Source: Synechococcus elongatus PCC 11801 (GTDB lineage Bacteria > Cyanobacteriota > Cyanobacteriia > Synechococcales > Synechococcaceae). Taken from it: a stretch of 33,025 bases of DNA. This document shows, in pieces, positions 8,071-17,949 of the stretch. Under the pieces are notes generated by a model, which made no database searches, was not told where the DNA came from, and saw only the letters and a list, made by a program, of their open reading frames with translations. Where the stretch lies: the NCBI RefSeq assembly GCF_003846445.2, contig NZ_CP143528.1:1-33025 (forward strand). Reading direction: 5' to 3'. Each line of letters begins with the position of its first letter. The stretch's first letter is position 1. The position numbers and the translations under genes are program-made.

Positions 8071-8985
8071 TTAAGCGGCGATCGCTTCGGGGCTATTGGC
8101 TTGCAATCCGGCATTAGAGAGCAACAGATCAGCAGCTTTACGGGCTTGGCTTGCAGCCTTAAAGAAGGCTTTCTTGTCGCTGCGCAGTCTTTCCAACCAG
8201 TGATCTAAATAACTGGCGTGATGCTCCAAGTCGGTGATGATGCCAAGGCGATCGCCACAGAAGGCCGCGCTGAGTTCCGCCACCAATTCCTCTAGGGCAT
8301 AGGACGGGCTGCCAAACTTGCCAGACTGATCGCGATCTAAGCGGCTGGGGTGCCCTGTCCAATGGCTCAACTCATGGATCAGCGTTGCGTAGTAACTCTC
8401 CGCGCTGCTGAATGCCGAGAGTTCTGGAACGACAACGCGATCGCCTTTGGGGTAATAGAACGCCTCCGCGCTACCCGTTGTAATTTGCGCTTTCTGGCTG
8501 GTGATGAACTGTTCTACAGCGGCGATCGGCTCGTGCTGCTGCCCTTCGGCTATTGATTCCGCTGGCTTTTTGGTTGTGGCTTCAGAATCATCCAAGCAAT
8601 CCAGATTGAAGGTCTGGAGCCACTTCGCCGACTGATAAAAGCGGGTGACTTCCTCACCGGTTTCGGGATTCTCCTCGGTTTTGCTGGCAGTGCCCGCCCA
8701 CAGAAGCCAAGTTGATTTGGAACCCTTGCGGATTTTCCAGCCCTGCTGCTTGGCTTGGGCGGCTCCGATAAACTGCTGGGACTGGTAGCCGAACAGCATC
8801 GAATCAATCGCACAGATCAACGGATTGCAGCCGCTGTAAACATGACCGCTGAGCGCGTTACGGAATCCGCCAGATTCGACACTCCACGGTTTGACCCATG
8901 GTTTCGTGCCACTCTCCAACAGGGCAATGATTCGGTTGGTGACTTCTTCAAACTTGTCGATTGGCGCGGGCTTGTTATTAGACAC
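8071..8985 (-). CDS. ArdC-like antirestriction protein (ssDNA-binding plus zincin metallopeptidase domain)
   Basis: The N-terminal half (about residues 8-130) matches the ArdC-type ssDNA-binding domain: FEEVTNRIIALLESGTKPW, then GHVYSGCNPL and QGWKIRKGSKST. The C-terminal half is a zincin-like peptidase with HELSH (204-208) followed by WTGH and a downstream LEELVAELSAAF helix that supplies the third metal ligand. Such proteins protect incoming plasmid DNA from host restriction. I prefer GTG at 8985 (304 residues) because GAGAGAAG precedes it and the product starts at the conserved domain. An ATG at 9063 would give 330 residues and overlap the upstream gene. Confidence 0.8.
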   Translation of the reverse strand: MSNNKPAPIDKFEEVTNRIIALLESGTKPWVKPWSVESGGFRNALSGHVYSGCNPLICAIDSMLFGYQSQQFIGAAQAKQQGWKIRKGSKSTWLLWAGTASKTEENPETGEEVTRFYQSAKWLQTFNLDCLDDSEATTKKPAESIAEGQQHEPIAAVEQFITSQKAQITTGSAEAFYYPKGDRVVVPELSAFSSAESYYATLIHELSHWTGHPSRLDRDQSGKFGSPSYALEELVAELSAAFCGDRLGIITDLEHHASYLDHWLERLRSDKKAFFKAASQARKAADLLLSNAGLQANSPEAIAA

Positions 8986-9031
8986 AGTTCTTCTCTCAAG
9001 AGAGAGCGATTTAGTTTGCAGACAGTCGAGA

Positions 9032-9277
9032 TCAAGCAACAGGGCGAGCATTGCGGCGGGCATTTTGCAGCTTTTCCAGCGCTTCTAGCTCGCTCGTGAT
9101 CGCGTGGTCGTAGGTTTCTAAGAGTTCGTCAATGTGACTGAGGAGCGATTTGGGCTGCTCGGCTTGGATGCGGCGACGGATTGCTAAGAGTACAAAGAAC
9201 AGCTCAATATTGGAGGCGCTGAGGATCGACGCATCGATCTCGTTCAACCGCGCTCGGCTGATCGATACTGGAGACAT
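9032..9277 (-). CDS. Small helical protein of unknown function
   Basis: An 81-residue protein starting at the ATG at 9277, preceded by AAGGAAAAAAG. A longer frame to 9382 exists but runs into the neighbouring gene. It appears almost wholly alpha-helical (SRARLNEIDASILSASNIE, then a long charged helix to the C terminus), with no motif I recognise. It sits between the coiled-coil gene and the ArdC-like gene on the same strand, so it is probably co-transcribed and plasmid-related. Confidence 0.5.
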   Translation of the reverse strand: MSPVSISRARLNEIDASILSASNIELFFVLLAIRRRIQAEQPKSLLSHIDELLETYDHAITSELEALEKLQNARRNARPVA

Positions 9278-9356: not shown

Positions 9357-9821
9357 TTAGTAGAGAGAAGCCAGCAGCTCATGGGCTTTTTTTGCCGCCG
9401 CTTGGCTAGCTAGCTCCTCCTGATTGATCAACCGGCGGAAGAATTGCTGATTGATGCCTCGCGCTTTCACTTCAAAAGCGGCTTGGGTGCGATTGCCTTT
9501 GCGGACTGCGGCATCATTCGCCAACTGATGAGCAGTGATGTAGCTTGCCATCTCCTGCGCTTCTTCGCGGCTGTCGTAACCGATATAACCGCACTGCTTC
9601 CAGCCGTAGATCGCCGCTTCATTCACCACCAGCACCAATCGCAGGCTGTAGACAGTGGTGATAAATTCCCGCTCTGTTAGCTTCTCTTGCAGAATTTTTG
9701 TTTGCTCAACCGATTCGATGTAACGGCTTTCTAACTCAGAGATTTGCACCTCCTGAGCATTGAGCCGACTTTGCAGTGCTTCGATTAAAGATTGCAGTTG
9801 AGCAACAGTAATACGAGCCAT
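9357..9821 (-). CDS. Coiled-coil plasmid protein of unknown function
   Basis: A 154-residue protein starting at the ATG at 9821, seven bases after an AAAGGT Shine-Dalgarno. Residues about 5-60 form a strong coiled coil (heptad-like LQSLIEALQSRLNAQEVQI and on). The rest, including YGWKQCGYIGYDSREEAQ and GINQQFFRRLINQEE, is a compact helical domain with no known motif. It is the first gene of the 9.8-7.4 kb minus-strand group and directly adjoins the T-depleted region. A TATAAT-like box lies on the minus strand at 9879-9884. Function unknown. Confidence 0.6.
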   Translation of the reverse strand: MARITVAQLQSLIEALQSRLNAQEVQISELESRYIESVEQTKILQEKLTEREFITTVYSLRLVLVVNEAAIYGWKQCGYIGYDSREEAQEMASYITAHQLANDAAVRKGNRTQAAFEVKARGINQQFFRRLINQEELASQAAAKKAHELLASLY

Positions 9822-9944: not shown

Positions 9945-10466
9945 CAACTACAGCAAAGAAGGCTGCACAACAGCGGGCAAAAGCAGCCACCAACCGCGAC
10001 CCAAAGACACGAAACCCCACGCTGGAACCGCAGGGGCAAACAACAAAACCGGCACGCCCAACCCAACCGCAAATGCCGCCGACGCCCACGAGCCAGAACC
10101 CCCGCCACAGAAGCAAGCCGCAGGCCGCGCCGAAGGCAGCACCGCAGCAGGGCAAGCGCCAGACGGGAAGGAAACCAGACAGCCACCCGCAGCGGCCAGA
10201 GAGCGCACAAACGCCACAGACCGCGCCGCAAACGAGCCACGACCAGACCCGAACTGCGCCGCCGAGAACACCGAAGCACGGGGGCAGGACAACCGCACCG
10301 CCCGATCCACACCCGCCGCGCAACCCACCAGCACCGAAGCCGAGGACGAAACCCGCGACAAGGCCACACCCACCGCCGACAGCGAAGCGGGCGAGGGAGC
10401 GCGGGAACCGGAGAACCCGACCACGGGAAAAGCCGACAGCGAAAACGACACAGCAAACAACCCAAA
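9945..10466. other. Almost thymine-free stretch, no credible gene
   Basis: From 9961 to 10440 the plus strand has only five T in 480 bases (at 9964, 10023, 10074, 10255 and 10306), with unbroken T-free runs of 180 bases (10075-10254) and 160 bases (10307-10466). The flanking sequence is ordinary. Because every stop codon contains T (and an A on the other strand), all six frames are open here by composition alone. The apparent proteins have no ribosome binding site, no recognisable domain and extreme composition. I therefore treat it as non-coding DNA under a strand-specific constraint. Function unknown. Confidence 0.9.
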
Positions 10467-10554
10467 TACCTAATACAATACTAACAAGAAATAAGCAGCT
10501 ATAACCAATAAGAAACAAAACAACAAAGACTACGCAAAAGCCGCCAGACCCTTA

Positions 10555-10585
10555 CCCTCTCTTCTCTCTTTCTCTCTCCTTTCTT
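10555..10585 (+). other. 31-base pyrimidine-only run
   Basis: An unbroken run of C and T (CCCTCTCTTCTCTCTTTCTC and on) follows about 90 bases after the T-free stretch ends. Such mirror-like polypyrimidine tracts can form triplex or slipped structures. No gene overlaps it. Confidence 0.7.
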
Positions 10586-10999
10586 ATCAAGAATAGAGAG
10601 CGCAGCAACTTGATTGCGCCGAGAGCTGAGCTGCGGATAAGAGTAGGGAATGATCCAATCGTTTTGCTAGCAGCGAAGGAAGGCGCAAATCAACAAGAGC
10701 GCAACCGCTCAGCGAGGCTTGCCGAGCTGCCCCCTTGAGCGCGAGCCCCCAGACACTTTCTTCTGCTGCCGCAGAGCGACCGAGCCCAGGGCTAGGGGGG
10801 CAAAGACAAAAGAGCCAACCTCACAAACAGCGGCAAAGGCAAGGGGGAGACAAAACCAGAGAACACTCTCCCCAGCTGCCGTGCCGCCAAGAATTAAGAG
10901 GCAACAGACTAAACAGCCCCACGCAGTTCAGCTTGCCCCTGGGTCGAAGGAGCGCGGCCAGCTATCTTGTCCCCGTTCATGGCGAGCGCGAACAATCCA

Positions 11000-11620
11000 G
11001 CGAGTTTGCGAGCTGCAATCAAGACTGTTCAGGCGGCGCTGAGTAATCTTCTACTCAATCGAAGCTCTGTCTTCGTTGAACCTTGACTCACTACAGACTG
11101 AAGCGCGGCCTGCAGAAGGGCGCTGCGCAGCAGGGCAAAGGCGACGGCTGTTCCATCAGCGAGCCTGTGAGCTGCAACAAGGGCTGTTGCGGTGGCGCTT
11201 TGCTGACTTGGTGCGAATCACAATCAAGCTTTCGCTCAACTTTCACCAATGACTGACTGAAGCGCTACCGACCCAAGGGCGCTGCGACAGGCTTGCCGGA
11301 GCAGGGCAATCTCAACGGCTGTCCAGCATCTCTCGCTGCTCTGCCGGTCCCATCGCCCACACCCTGCGAAGCTGCGGGCAGGCCGAAGGGGGCACGCGGC
11401 GAGCTCCACTCCGGCGATCGCTCCCTCGCATAACTTAGGGAATCTCTTATCCCCTAAAAACTGCGATCGCGAACTGTTAAGGCTCAACGGCTGTTTCCTG
11501 CTTGGACTGTGACGGCGGCGCTCCACTTGCTCTGAATGGATAAATGCTTAGCCGTCGCTCAATTTCGATTCAGCCTGAATGACAGCGCGGCCGATTCTGG
11601 GCACTGCGAACTGGCTCTAC
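11000..11620 (+). repeat. Degenerate ~165-base tandem repeats (two units plus a partial third)
   Basis: Unit 1 (about 11000-11152) and unit 2 (about 11157-11326) share an ordered set of blocks: CAGCGAG, GAGCTGCAA, a GGCTGTT..GGYGGCGCT block, ACTGAAGCGC, AGGGCGCTGCG, GCAGGGCAA and CGGCTGT. A partial third unit (about 11484-11620) repeats CGGCTGTTTCC, GGCGGCGCT, GCTCAAT, GACAGCGCGGCC and the CACTGCG end. Identity is low between blocks, so these are old copies or repeated structural elements. No open frame uses them convincingly. Confidence 0.5.
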
Positions 11621-13530: not shown

Positions 13531-13940
13531 AAATCTGGTACCAGCATGGTTCGGAGCACTCAGCTAACCTCGTCATGATCGGGCGCTTCAAGGACGTAGC
13601 CGAGGCAACGAAGGCTAAGGAGATTATCGACGCGATCGCAAAGCAGGTTGATAAAGAGCTATCGGAAGGGACATTAACCCTGGGGGACCCACCAGCGCGC
13701 TATGGGGAAGAGATGCTCGAACTTCTAGGAAAGCTGAACGCGGTGACGCTCGGGACGAGTGAGCTCGAACAGTTTTCGTACGAGGTCAGCGTCAAATCCA
13801 AGGGAAGTGATCTTGTTGTCACTACCGAAGAGTACGATATCTCGGCATTCCTCAAGGTGATGCTTTTGCAAGGTGCGCGGATTGAGGTCTACTCTGCACA
13901 CGATCATCCCGACAGCGAGTACGGGAGGGGGCTCGGATGA
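13527..13940 (+). CDS. DUF6375-like small protein, partner of the radical SAM enzyme
   Basis: A 137-residue protein opening with MKIWYQHGSEHSANLVMIGR, a start I associate from memory with the DUF6375 family. It is predicted to be mixed alpha/beta with no enzyme motif. Its ATG overlaps the radical SAM stop, and its own stop lies 13 bases before the ATG of the large nuclease/NTPase, so the three genes form one tight operon. It could be an adaptor, a substrate carrier or the modified target. Family name is moderately confident; function unknown. Confidence 0.6.
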   Translation: MKIWYQHGSEHSANLVMIGRFKDVAEATKAKEIIDAIAKQVDKELSEGTLTLGDPPARYGEEMLELLGKLNAVTLGTSELEQFSYEVSVKSKGSDLVVTTEEYDISAFLKVMLLQGARIEVYSAHDHPDSEYGRGLG

Positions 13941-13953
13941 GCATAGAGCTGAG

Positions 13954-16900
13954 ATGCCAGCGCTGAACTGGGACATCTTCACCTGTCTACCGGGGAGCGC
14001 AGAGAAGAACTTTGAGCTGCTCTGCAGGGGTATCGTGCGCCAGAACTTTGGTAGCTTCGGCACCTTCCGCTCCCTTGCAAACCAACCTGGCGTCGAATTC
14101 CATCTCAAGCTCACTCAACGTTGCGATGCACTCGGCGAGCCGGGTCGTTGGTGGGGCTGGCAGTGCAAATGGTACGAGCTCACGGCAAACGGCACGTTGG
14201 GGGCGAACAGAAGAAAGACAATCGAGGAAGGACTCCGCAAGACAGAAAAGTACCTGCCTGAGCTCACGGACTGGGTACTGTGGACGCGCCGCACATTAAC
14301 GAAAGACGACCAAAAATGGTTCAACGGCCTCTCATCCAAGATGTCACTACACCTGTGGACGGGGGACGAAGTTGACAACTATCTCGTTGGGCAGGCAACG
14401 GTTCTTCGCGGTACCTACTTTGGTGAGCTGGTATTCACTCCTAGCATCCTGTGTGAGCGACACGAACAGGCAGTCGCTCGGATTAAAAAACGATGGCAGC
14501 CTGATGTGCATCATGTTGGCAACACTGAGCGCGAGCTGCGTCGAATGCTCGGTGAAGTGGAGGCGTGGGATACGCTTCTTGATCTGGCGACCGAATTGCG
14601 CGCAAACGTCGAGGCAGTCAAATCCTTGCCGGATGTGCCTACTCAACTTGCGTCATGCGTAGCGGCTGTCATCAGTACCTCGAGCCAACTAGCGAATACC
14701 TTAGACAGGGCCGTGCAGGGAATCCGCGTTGGGGACCTTGACCTTCTTCGTGATGAACTCAATGGTCGTTCACGCGTTCTGCCTGCGGAAGTACAAACCG
14801 CCCCTCGAAAACTTCGATCTGGCAGGCAGATTGCGGCGCTCTACGTGACGAATTTAGTGGCAGCCTGTCACGACGCAATACGGGTGCTTAGCGAGGTTGA
14901 GACGGGTTTTTCTTCGCGTCTAGTCGCAGTCCTTGCTCCCGCAGGATGTGGAAAGACCCAGCTTGCCGCTCAGCTCACAGCAAGCACAACAGATCGTCCG
15001 CATGGAGTGCTGTTACACGGAGGAGACTTACACGCGAACCACACACTTGATGACTTAGCTCGTCGTGTGTCGATCGCGGCGCAGCCTGTGCCAAGCATGG
15101 AGGCACTGCTCGCAGCCATTGATGCTGCTGGTCAGCGTGCTCAGAAACGTCTCCCAATCTTGATCGACGGACTGAATGAGTCGGAAGACCCAAGGAGGTG
15201 GAAGCCGCTGCTCGCCGAGCTAGAGGCTACCCTCGTGAAGTACCCGTACGTGCTGCTGGTCTGCACGCTACGCCCCGAATTTATGGACGATGTGCTTCTT
15301 GACGGAATGCACCATCTCGAGCTGGGCGACTATGGCGAAGAGACCATCGAGGCAATTCACAAACACTTCCGCTACTGGAAGATCGATGCCATCGACGCAG
15401 CTTTGCCCGACCTTCTGAGTCATCCCCTCACGCTACGCCTCTTCTGCGAGGTGACAAACGCACCTCGGCAACAGGTTATTGGAATCGGCTCAATGCCAGG
15501 TTCTCTGACATCGCTCTTCGAGCGATATCTTGAACAGGCCAGCGTACGAGTCGCTGAACTCGCTTCACTCACGCGTCGTTTCTATGCGCAAGACGTTAAT
15601 GCAGCGATCGCGGCGATCGCAGACAAACTTTGGGAATCGAGAGCCCGCTCTATTGAGATCGGTGAGCTTCGAAACATGCTCGGAGATGCGCAGCGTCCGT
15701 GGGACCAGAGCCTTGTTCGCGCGCTGGAACAGGAGGGCGTACTACTCCGCACTCCCTCGAACGGCAGCGATGTGTACGTGCCGGTGTACGACATGTTTGG
15801 TGGGTACATCATCGCCAAAGCGCTACTGGCGAAGCACAGTCGAAGCAGCTTTGAGACGTGGATCAATAATTCTTCTACGATGGCGTTGCTTGCTGGAAGC
15901 CACACTGTTCGGCATCCGCTCGCTGGTGATGTCCTCAGATCATTAGTCGAACAAGTTCCTCGTCGGTTCGACTCGAAGCAAGTCTGGCAGATGGTGGACG
16001 AGCCGCTACGTAGCCGAGCATTGCGGTGTGCGGCGCAACTCGAACCTGCGTTCCTCGATGCGGAGACAGTCGACGCACTGATCGATCTCGTTCGGGCTGG
16101 CGATCCAGAAATACTTACCCGACTCTGGCAGATACGCGGTATGCAAGGCCATCCCCTAAATGCCGATCGTCTGGATCAAGTGCTGCAAAGTATGCCAGTC
16201 GCAGACCGCGATCTTCGCTGGACAGAGTGGATCCGCAGGAACTATGACGACCCCTTGGGGCAAGGCCGAAGCATGCTTCGCGACCTTGAGTCTCTAAAGG
16301 ATCGCTGGCGAGGCGGGCACATTCGTCCGGGCGATCGGCTACGTGCGCGTTGGGTCATGTGGACACTCACGAGCACCGTTCGACGCCTGCGCGATCAGGC
16401 CACTTGCGCTCTGTACTGGTTCGGACGCCACAATCCTGAAGGGCTTTTCGCTCTGACAATCGAGTCGCTGCCAGTGAACGACGCTTATGTAGGCGAGCGG
16501 ATGCTTGCGGCGGCATACGGTGTGGTGATGAGCCACCAGCAGGCGGATGATGGGTTTGCAGCTCATCTAGGACCATTTCTCCAGCAGCTCGCATCGGCAC
16601 TCGTGGGGCAGTCAGCGATCGCCCCGACGCAGCACTACTTGGCGCGGCTCTATGTACGCGGTATCGTTGCCTTCGCTGCAAAGTTCTATCCCAGCTTGCT
16701 GCCCACTGCGTTAAGCGGTAAATGGATATTCGCCTCACCTCCACCCGTACAGTCCCTCGTCGATGGCGATGCTGGAGCTGAAGAGGCAGGACAAACGCTG
16801 CACATGGACTTCAAGAACTACACGTTGGGGAAACTTTTCGACGAGCGTAGAAACTATGACATGAGCCATACGGGACATCAGGCAGCCGTAGCTCATGTGT

Positions 16901-17949
16901 GCGGGGTTGTATGGACGCTCGGATGGAGAGCGGCTCGCTTTGACGCGCTAGATCGCCAGATTGCTGAAAGCGCCTATCACTATAGCCGTACAGATCGGTC
17001 ACGCGTAGAGCGGTATGGGAAGAAATACGGATGGACTGGATTCTTCACGTATGCCGGGCTCCTTGAGGAACAAGGGCTGTTGCCACATGGCAGCTCCTTC
17101 TCTGACGTCGATATTGATCCTTCATTCCCTGAACAATCACCTATCGATGGGACGCCCACATCTCCCGAGGTCTGGCTATCCCCATCCACCAAGAGCCACG
17201 AGCAATGGGTTCGAGAGAGCTCTACTTCCGTGCCTCATAACCTTCTCGTTCGGGAGAAGATTGGTGAGCATGATGGACCGTGGGTTGCTGTCTACGGATT
17301 TGTCTCGGCTGAGGACAGGGTACTCGGGCGCGGGGCATGGGCCTTCATCTCGGCGTTCGTGACCCCAAAACAGACATCGCAACAACTGGTAGATGCTCTG
17401 AAAGATGGTTTGCGGCCATGGGTAGCTAGCAACATTCCCAGCGACTACTACACATTCGCTGGCGAGATCCCTTGGCACCCACGCTTCGCCGCCGAAGTAC
17501 TTGCCGAATCTGGCCTGGAGCATGCATACCGAGAGACCATTCACGTTGGTACGCGCAACGTGGTGGTTGAGATCCTCTCGCATACCTACGAGTGGGAGAC
17601 CTACCACAATGAGATCAACCGAGCTGGCAGTGTGTACGTGCCGTCTCGGCATTTCTCAGCACGGTTTGACCTGCGGAGCATGCCGCAAGGATTTGATCAG
17701 TATCTGCCCAATGGCACAAAAGCGACCATTACGTTGAGTAGTGTCGATGGACTAAAAGGCAACGTACTGTATGTTCGGGAAGACCTGCTTCAGCAATACA
17801 TCGGTGACCGCACTGTAGTGTGGTTTTCATTCGGCGAGCGTGAGTTGCGACCCTATCCACCATCACCACCGCAATGGCTCGTGGATGCTCAGCAGAAACA
17901 AGAAAATGCGTGGACTGAGGTACTAACCGAGGCTGACTTTAGGCCCTAG
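13954..17949 (+). CDS. Large restriction-nuclease-like/P-loop NTPase protein (STAND- or Avs-like architecture)
   Basis: A 1331-residue protein from the ATG at 13954. Residues about 5-165 look like a PD-(D/E)xK nuclease: GVEFHLKL with Glu48 and WWGWQCKWYE with Gln70-x-Lys72, as in Mrr-type domains. A helical linker leads to a P-loop NTPase with Walker A LAPAGCGKT (327-335) and Walker B LPILIDGLNE (400-409). The remaining ~900 residues are long helical repeats and a C-terminal region, a plausible sensor. Nuclease, switch and large sensor in this order resemble Avs4-like phage sensors, though I see no proof of homology. GC content is normal and some HIP1 sites occur, so it may come from another cyanobacterium. 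A Lys-rich tail is encoded just past the stop in another frame. Confidence 0.7.
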   Translation: MPALNWDIFTCLPGSAEKNFELLCRGIVRQNFGSFGTFRSLANQPGVEFHLKLTQRCDALGEPGRWWGWQCKWYELTANGTLGANRRKTIEEGLRKTEKYLPELTDWVLWTRRTLTKDDQKWFNGLSSKMSLHLWTGDEVDNYLVGQATVLRGTYFGELVFTPSILCERHEQAVARIKKRWQPDVHHVGNTERELRRMLGEVEAWDTLLDLATELRANVEAVKSLPDVPTQLASCVAAVISTSSQLANTLDRAVQGIRVGDLDLLRDELNGRSRVLPAEVQTAPRKLRSGRQIAALYVTNLVAACHDAIRVLSEVETGFSSRLVAVLAPAGCGKTQLAAQLTASTTDRPHGVLLHGGDLHANHTLDDLARRVSIAAQPVPSMEALLAAIDAAGQRAQKRLPILIDGLNESEDPRRWKPLLAELEATLVKYPYVLLVCTLRPEFMDDVLLDGMHHLELGDYGEETIEAIHKHFRYWKIDAIDAALPDLLSHPLTLRLFCEVTNAPRQQVIGIGSMPGSLTSLFERYLEQASVRVAELASLTRRFYAQDVNAAIAAIADKLWESRARSIEIGELRNMLGDAQRPWDQSLVRALEQEGVLLRTPSNGSDVYVPVYDMFGGYIIAKALLAKHSRSSFETWINNSSTMALLAGSHTVRHPLAGDVLRSLVEQVPRRFDSKQVWQMVDEPLRSRALRCAAQLEPAFLDAETVDALIDLVRAGDPEILTRLWQIRGMQGHPLNADRLDQVLQSMPVADRDLRWTEWIRRNYDDPLGQGRSMLRDLESLKDRWRGGHIRPGDRLRARWVMWTLTSTVRRLRDQATCALYWFGRHNPEGLFALTIESLPVNDAYVGERMLAAAYGVVMSHQQADDGFAAHLGPFLQQLASALVGQSAIAPTQHYLARLYVRGIVAFAAKFYPSLLPTALSGKWIFASPPPVQSLVDGDAGAEEAGQTLHMDFKNYTLGKLFDERRNYDMSHTGHQAAVAHVCGVVWTLGWRAARFDALDRQIAESAYHYSRTDRSRVERYGKKYGWTGFFTYAGLLEEQGLLPHGSSFSDVDIDPSFPEQSPIDGTPTSPEVWLSPSTKSHEQWVRESSTSVPHNLLVREKIGEHDGPWVAVYGFVSAEDRVLGRGAWAFISAFVTPKQTSQQLVDALKDGLRPWVASNIPSDYYTFAGEIPWHPRFAAEVLAESGLEHAYRETIHVGTRNVVVEILSHTYEWETYHNEINRAGSVYVPSRHFSARFDLRSMPQGFDQYLPNGTKATITLSSVDGLKGNVLYVREDLLQQYIGDRTVVWFSFGERELRPYPPSPPQWLVDAQQKQENAWTEVLTEADFRP

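Follow-up and report, generated by a model that had tools for sequence, protein, structure and literature searches.

A nearly adenine-free gene for a DprA-like protein in Synechococcus elongatus PCC 11801 and its relatives in other genera

Why should one strand of half a kilobase of DNA be almost devoid of a single nucleotide, and what does such a stretch encode? The question arises from the window, that is, the whole stretch of 33,025 bases analysed, which constitutes one entire contig of the genome of Synechococcus elongatus PCC 11801. Between positions 9946 and 10466, its + strand was found to carry 6 T in 521 bases, with T-free runs of 180 nt (10075-10254) and 160 nt (10307-10466), confirming the near-absence of T recorded in the first-pass annotation. 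The poorest 480-base stretch holds 4 T compared to a median across the window of 110 T per 480; given the T frequency of the window, the binomial P for the deficit is approximately 1.5e-52, while the expected number of 180-nt T-free runs is approximately 1e-17. A chance origin is excluded. A simple repeat or low-complexity tract was likewise rejected, as repeat finders detected no repeat array in 9946-10466, in agreement with the first-pass annotation. Across the genome itself (2.80 Mb, 7 contigs), A-free or T-free runs of at least 126 nt begin at 90 offsets, exactly the 55 + 35 contributed by the two runs of the window; no other stretch of at least 126 nt free of A on one strand exists in these 2.8 Mb.

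The deficit is common to four independent sister plasmid types differing by at most approximately 20% (6-15 T per 514 positions), and it was also observed in plasmids of other genera. An assembly artefact, a concern raised at the outset, is excluded by its presence in the sister plasmids, and its retention in diverged relatives is the very sign by which a constraint on composition was to be recognized.

A gene with a nearly adenine-free message

The first-pass annotation saw no frame resembling a gene in this stretch and proposed, among other possibilities, a U-free RNA. A gene is nevertheless present on the minus strand (9948..10451; GTG start, 10451-10449; TAG stop, 9950-9948), encoding a DprA/SLOG-like protein of 167 aa which is annotated as 'hypothetical protein' in the sister plasmids. 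By base counts, the T-poor stretch (9946..10466, +) comprises the template strand of this gene together with 15 nt upstream of its start. Because the gene runs on the minus strand, it is the template that is poor in T and the message that is nearly A-free; the coding strand contains just 5 A ahead of the stop codon, corresponding to T on the + strand at 9964, 10023, 10074, 10255, and 10306. Hence the relevant strand is the A-free coding strand, or mRNA, rather than a U-free transcript.

That the T-poor + strand serves as the template of a real protein-coding gene was shown with its near relatives, the four S. elongatus plasmid types of 80-88% identity. Their alignment over the region is gapless apart from one inserted base in pIITB6_1, and the variable sites among them are divided 90:32:17 by codon position, the third position being the most variable. 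Strong purifying selection was detected in one minus frame alone among the six (dN/dS-like value of 0.19), and this codon-level conservation, coupled with a confidently modelled fold and homologs in many genera, speaks against a non-coding element. The notion of a non-coding T-free element, or of an antisense gene on the + strand, draws on the fact that every + frame is open in the window sequence, and yet the best conserved + frame (dN/dS-like value of 0.30) shares its third position with the minus frame, is interrupted by stop codons in three of the five sister plasmids and lacks an evident start. With the minus frame both better conserved and able to fold, this notion is scarcely credible.

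Upstream of the start, a 24-nt block, ATTTCTTGTTAGTATTGTATTAGG (10469..10492, -), is almost unchanged in all five sister plasmids, and we infer it to be a candidate promoter. Further upstream, a GA-rich tract ending in GAGAGGGTAAGGGT (10548..10590, -) is also kept in the sister plasmids, and it recurs upstream of the A-free tract of another member (L026). In two relatives, pIITB6_1 (L004; by its one inserted base) and Synechocystis B12 (L009), the A-free gene is frameshifted but still A-free, and the frame runs on because hardly any stop codon can arise in it. At two other loci (L006, 3537-3968; L007, 3525-3968), a convergent gene has been annotated, and the DNA for its disordered C-terminal tail lies antisense to the 3' portion of the A-free gene; the annotations of L010 and L012 have no gene at the A-free locus.

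The DprA-like protein and its family

The 167 residues of the window protein represent 12 amino-acid types, or 13 when the GTG start is read as Met, viz. the ten that can be encoded without A and a very small number of others. The five remaining A reside in the codons of Asp49, Gln66, Ala126, Pro143, and Gln163. Asp49, the sole Asp of the protein (GAT codon, 10305..10307, -), belongs to a GCAAGVD motif and is nearly invariant in the family. Gln163 begins the C-terminal QPSLL (9951..9965, -), a variant of the QLSLF beta-clamp-binding-like motif, and keeps an A in its codon; a C-terminal peptide of the QLxLF type is present in 39 of 74 members, and the tail is regarded as a putative beta-clamp-binding-like motif on the basis of its sequence.

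Modelling with AlphaFold2 and 29 relatives (pLDDT 93.7, pTM 0.89) confidently predicts a Rossmann fold of the DprA/SLOG type. Structures of ShosA and DprA headed the Foldseek search (best 8zva; also HpDprA and SpDprA) with probabilities of 0.96-1.00 and TM values of approximately 0.5, none reaching an E-value of 1e-3. Sequence profiles gave weaker matches: PF02481 (DNA_processg_A) was matched at E-values of 3e-4 to 5e-3, its 16.5-20.4 bits falling below the Pfam gathering cut-off of 29.6, the PADLOC model of ShosA matched a relative of normal A content (Cylindrospermopsis L013) at 6e-4 and the window protein weakly at 0.07, and searches of PHROGs and NCBIfam, the latter of which has no model for the window protein, returned only weak or chance-level matches.

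The family has in common with DprA/Smf and other SLOG proteins a Rossmann-like core, a GxxGS/TR start, and the motifs GCAxGVD and GSGxWAS..A. However, the window protein is a single domain of 167 aa that lacks the SAM and winged-helix domains of full-length DprA; it is also free of lysine, bears a clamp-like tail and is encoded by a gene with almost no A. Its modelled fold and glycine-rich motifs agree with the SLOG superfamily, for which nucleotide binding would be predicted. ShosA, the DprA-like antitoxin of ShosTA, provided the best PDB fold match (8zva), but the window protein is about half its length and no phosphoribosyltransferase that could represent a ShosT partner was found in Pfam scans of 20 of the larger window ORFs. 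The family is considered a new DprA-like subfamily.

Members were gathered by tblastn, profile and contig searches from Synechocystis, Nostoc, Microcystis, Nodosilinea, Trichocoleus, Prochloraceae, and others, as well as from the proteobacterium Candidatus Contendobacter and viral contigs; a member is present in 27 of 390 cyanobacterial genomes. Approximately 50 diverged relatives are nearly A-free, and for most members the A content of the coding strand is 0.00-0.09 compared to 0.14-0.34 in the surrounding DNA. The nearly A-free genes are located on plasmids, phage-like contigs and some chromosome-sized contigs; a search for phage records carrying the protein found none. A few relatives are of ordinary composition, namely those of Cylindrospermopsis (L013) and Dolichospermum (L059) and one of two tandem DprA-like copies at L071, where the copy at 669-1217 is nearly A-free and fused to a companion domain while that at 1366-1857 contains 19% A. 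In a tree, the strongly depleted members cluster in a single supported group (55 rows), inside which a few normal or intermediate members are nested, a topology that similar amino-acid make-up may distort.

Extent and context of the adenine exclusion

The exclusion of A was shown to end where the terminator ends in members with a recognizable terminator. In 15 such members, with transcript ends as predicted, A makes up 0.04-0.08 of the 60 nt that close with the U-run and 0.21-0.33 of the sequence beyond it. The exclusion can also take in a second gene. At four loci (L061, L067, L075, and L079), A is absent or almost absent from both a long leader and a second gene that comes first, and some of these loci carry A-free Shine-Dalgarno-like GGGGGTGT sites. 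The second protein is a small conserved domain, which in L026, L032, and L071 is part of one fusion protein with the DprA-like domain. On two small contigs (L103, 1501-2184; L104, 1318-1667, minus), A-free genes encode either the companion domain or a short, unrelated protein that probably contains a membrane helix, and the DprA-like relatives located there are of ordinary composition. Given that A is scarce as far as the terminator, and in some cases also throughout long leaders and a second or different gene, the constraint lies on the nucleic acid, and probably on the transcript. A single-strand landing zone, as the first-pass annotation had suggested, finds no support in a deficit that follows a gene and its terminator. 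The whole RNA is not always A-free, since strongly depleted members such as L034 and the Nostoc group start, downstream of a TATAAT box, with a short leader rich in A.

These leaders bear upon the proposal that an A-free message could be made under ATP depletion. The A-free leaders, Shine-Dalgarno-like sites and terminators of some members would accord with transcription that requires no ATP; however, L034 and others begin with A-rich leaders, translation would still need ATP, and a tolerance for particular contexts of A (see below) is not expected, making this proposal very unlikely.

Depletion was observed at all three codon positions (0.00-0.09 against a background of 0.14-0.34), with A being replaced preferentially by G. 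In 31 strongly depleted members, A occupies 29 of 1000 four-fold third positions in the context CAG and 12 of 2957 elsewhere (Fisher P of 1e-9), i.e., 2.9% and 0.3-0.4%, respectively, compared to approximately 20% in neighbouring genes. When 40 members with slightly different domain limits were used, the pattern was kept but weaker (CAG, 0.022; CAT, 0.011; CAC, 0.007), and nearly all contexts preceded by G or T had A values of 0-0.005. CAG, the most tolerated adenine context, occurs in all three codon phases, and its synonymous adenines look common to diverged plasmids. Exclusion was thereby shown to target nucleotides, and not amino acids or codons. Avoidance of codons read by a tRNA class destroyed in the host might have explained why the protein consists almost wholly of the ten amino acids encodable without A, but the depletion of synonymous third positions, 3'UTRs, terminators and long leaders, together with the sparing of CAG irrespective of phase, renders it highly improbable. 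Selection on RNA structure was rejected as well, the fold energies of A-free members lying mostly within approximately 1.7 s.d. of dinucleotide shuffles (z of -2.9 to +1.5).

The same observations form the case for the chief rival of any explanation by selection, a strand-specific mutation process of the kind that the first-pass annotation had listed as possible. Adenine deamination on the non-template strand or A-error-prone reverse transcription would rewrite the transcribed region until only indispensable A remain, consistent with the boundary at the terminator, the sparing of short promoter-near leaders, the preferential replacement by G, and the enzyme-like context dependence. Such a process would demand a locus-specific mutator common to many genera and two phyla; in addition, relatives with normal A exist, one of them in tandem with an A-free copy (L071), and the apparent sharing of synonymous CAG adenines between diverged plasmids counts against it. 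No RVT_1 reverse transcriptase is encoded anywhere in the organism's own genome, and self-templated reverse transcription was rejected on these grounds. Mutation directed to the transcript is judged rather unlikely, although the available sequences would fit either it or selection on the RNA.

Genomic setting and the proposed explanation

In the window, the A-free gene is followed on the same strand by two small genes and ardC. The first of these (9357..9821, -) encodes 154 aa without a Pfam match and is of ordinary composition; ArdC (8071..9063, -), an anti-restriction protein with ArdcN and zincin-like metallopeptidase domains, is suggestive of an establishment or leading region. Neighbours at other loci include ArdA, SSB, ERF, Rad52, Gp157, and a DUF3799 exonuclease, and the neighbouring early genes have ordinary composition. 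The setting also resembles the early regions of phages, and we know of no base exclusion in leading-region genes. The matching plasmids are typed as non-mobilizable. Around the family loci, genes for ArdA, ArdC, SSB and recombination proteins point the same way, which is reminiscent of the leading regions of conjugative plasmids, the genes of which are oriented for transcription from the entering, transferred strand, although DprA and ArdC are absent from the main text describing them (PMC11541004); a putative leading-region status is suggested by a block of anti-restriction genes on one strand. Since several members adjoin plasmid- or phage-like anti-restriction and recombination genes, it is probable that their expression starts soon after the element has entered a cell.

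This setting invites the view that a T-free template strand is what matters, e.g., for transcription of entering single-stranded DNA or for protection from damage at T. However, the exclusion stops at an RNA terminator, and the specific versions of this view conflict with the context of the residual A. Photodimers on the template would leave CAC and TAC tolerated, whereas both are strongly depleted and CAG (CTG on the template) is spared. Primase sites of the E. coli type are CTG, so that their avoidance would deplete precisely the context that persists. Both versions were rejected, and a cause at the level of DNA appears improbable.

The window holds other features. A Thoeris pair (627-2041, -), ThsA with a Macro domain and a TIR-like ThsB according to Pfam, lies in an AT-rich segment of approximately 30% GC, and an ORF of 1358 aa (13873-17949) has no Pfam match. 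Two diverged direct-repeat blocks spaced by 159 nt are located in a long non-coding region (10998-11286), possibly an origin region; pANL of PCC 7942 shares part of this flank (10998-11600). Outside the window, similar promoter-like palindromes, e.g., AGCACGCTATAAT and GCGTGTACACTCTATAATAA, precede several genes of the clusters at L006 (3420-3510) and L008 (3795-3815 and 4710-4785), and their recurrence suggests a common repressor.

The explanation we favour, with moderate confidence, is selection on the RNA: as the element enters a cell, an adenine-directed attack on RNA would be under way, and the message has to withstand it. Such an attack could come from mRNA interferases that require A, from HEPN ribonucleases or from a toxin that modifies adenine. 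Its protein, a trimmed DprA, would probably act as a Rossmann-fold factor for DNA or nucleotides which its C-terminal tail would bring to the sliding clamp and which may assist recombination or strand conversion of incoming DNA. Evasion of RNA attack takes first place among the explanations since it can do without a locus-specific mutator. Against it, the neighbouring early genes have ordinary A contents, some strongly depleted members have the A-rich leaders noted above, some members lie on chromosome-sized contigs, and a mutator could equally account for the A-to-G bias and context dependence; nor do the loci all share a gene for an adenine-attacking agent. The proposed principle is that of messages short of toxin cleavage sites, such as ACA-poor mRNAs that resist MazF, their composition being shaped to escape an RNA-cutting enzyme, but in the A-free family one base is nearly gone from almost all contexts and along whole genes. 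Somewhat more tentatively, the family may represent an undescribed strategy of mobile elements, in which establishment transcripts that forgo one nucleotide work during adenine-directed RNA attack at the cost of a protein made of essentially ten amino acids.

In the open-access literature, no description was found of natural genes that dispense with one of the four nucleotides from end to end and whose protein is nevertheless under purifying selection, and as far as that literature shows, nearly A-free genes are a real, widespread and apparently undescribed phenomenon, one routinely labelled 'hypothetical' or missed by annotation. Were selection on RNA the cause, these genes would point to a strong adenine-directed pressure that plasmids and phages encounter, and would provide a direct assay for it; were a mutator responsible, it would be a new and targeted one. 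With either cause, the family offers natural folded proteins of approximately ten amino-acid types, which are of interest for both protein design and early evolution.
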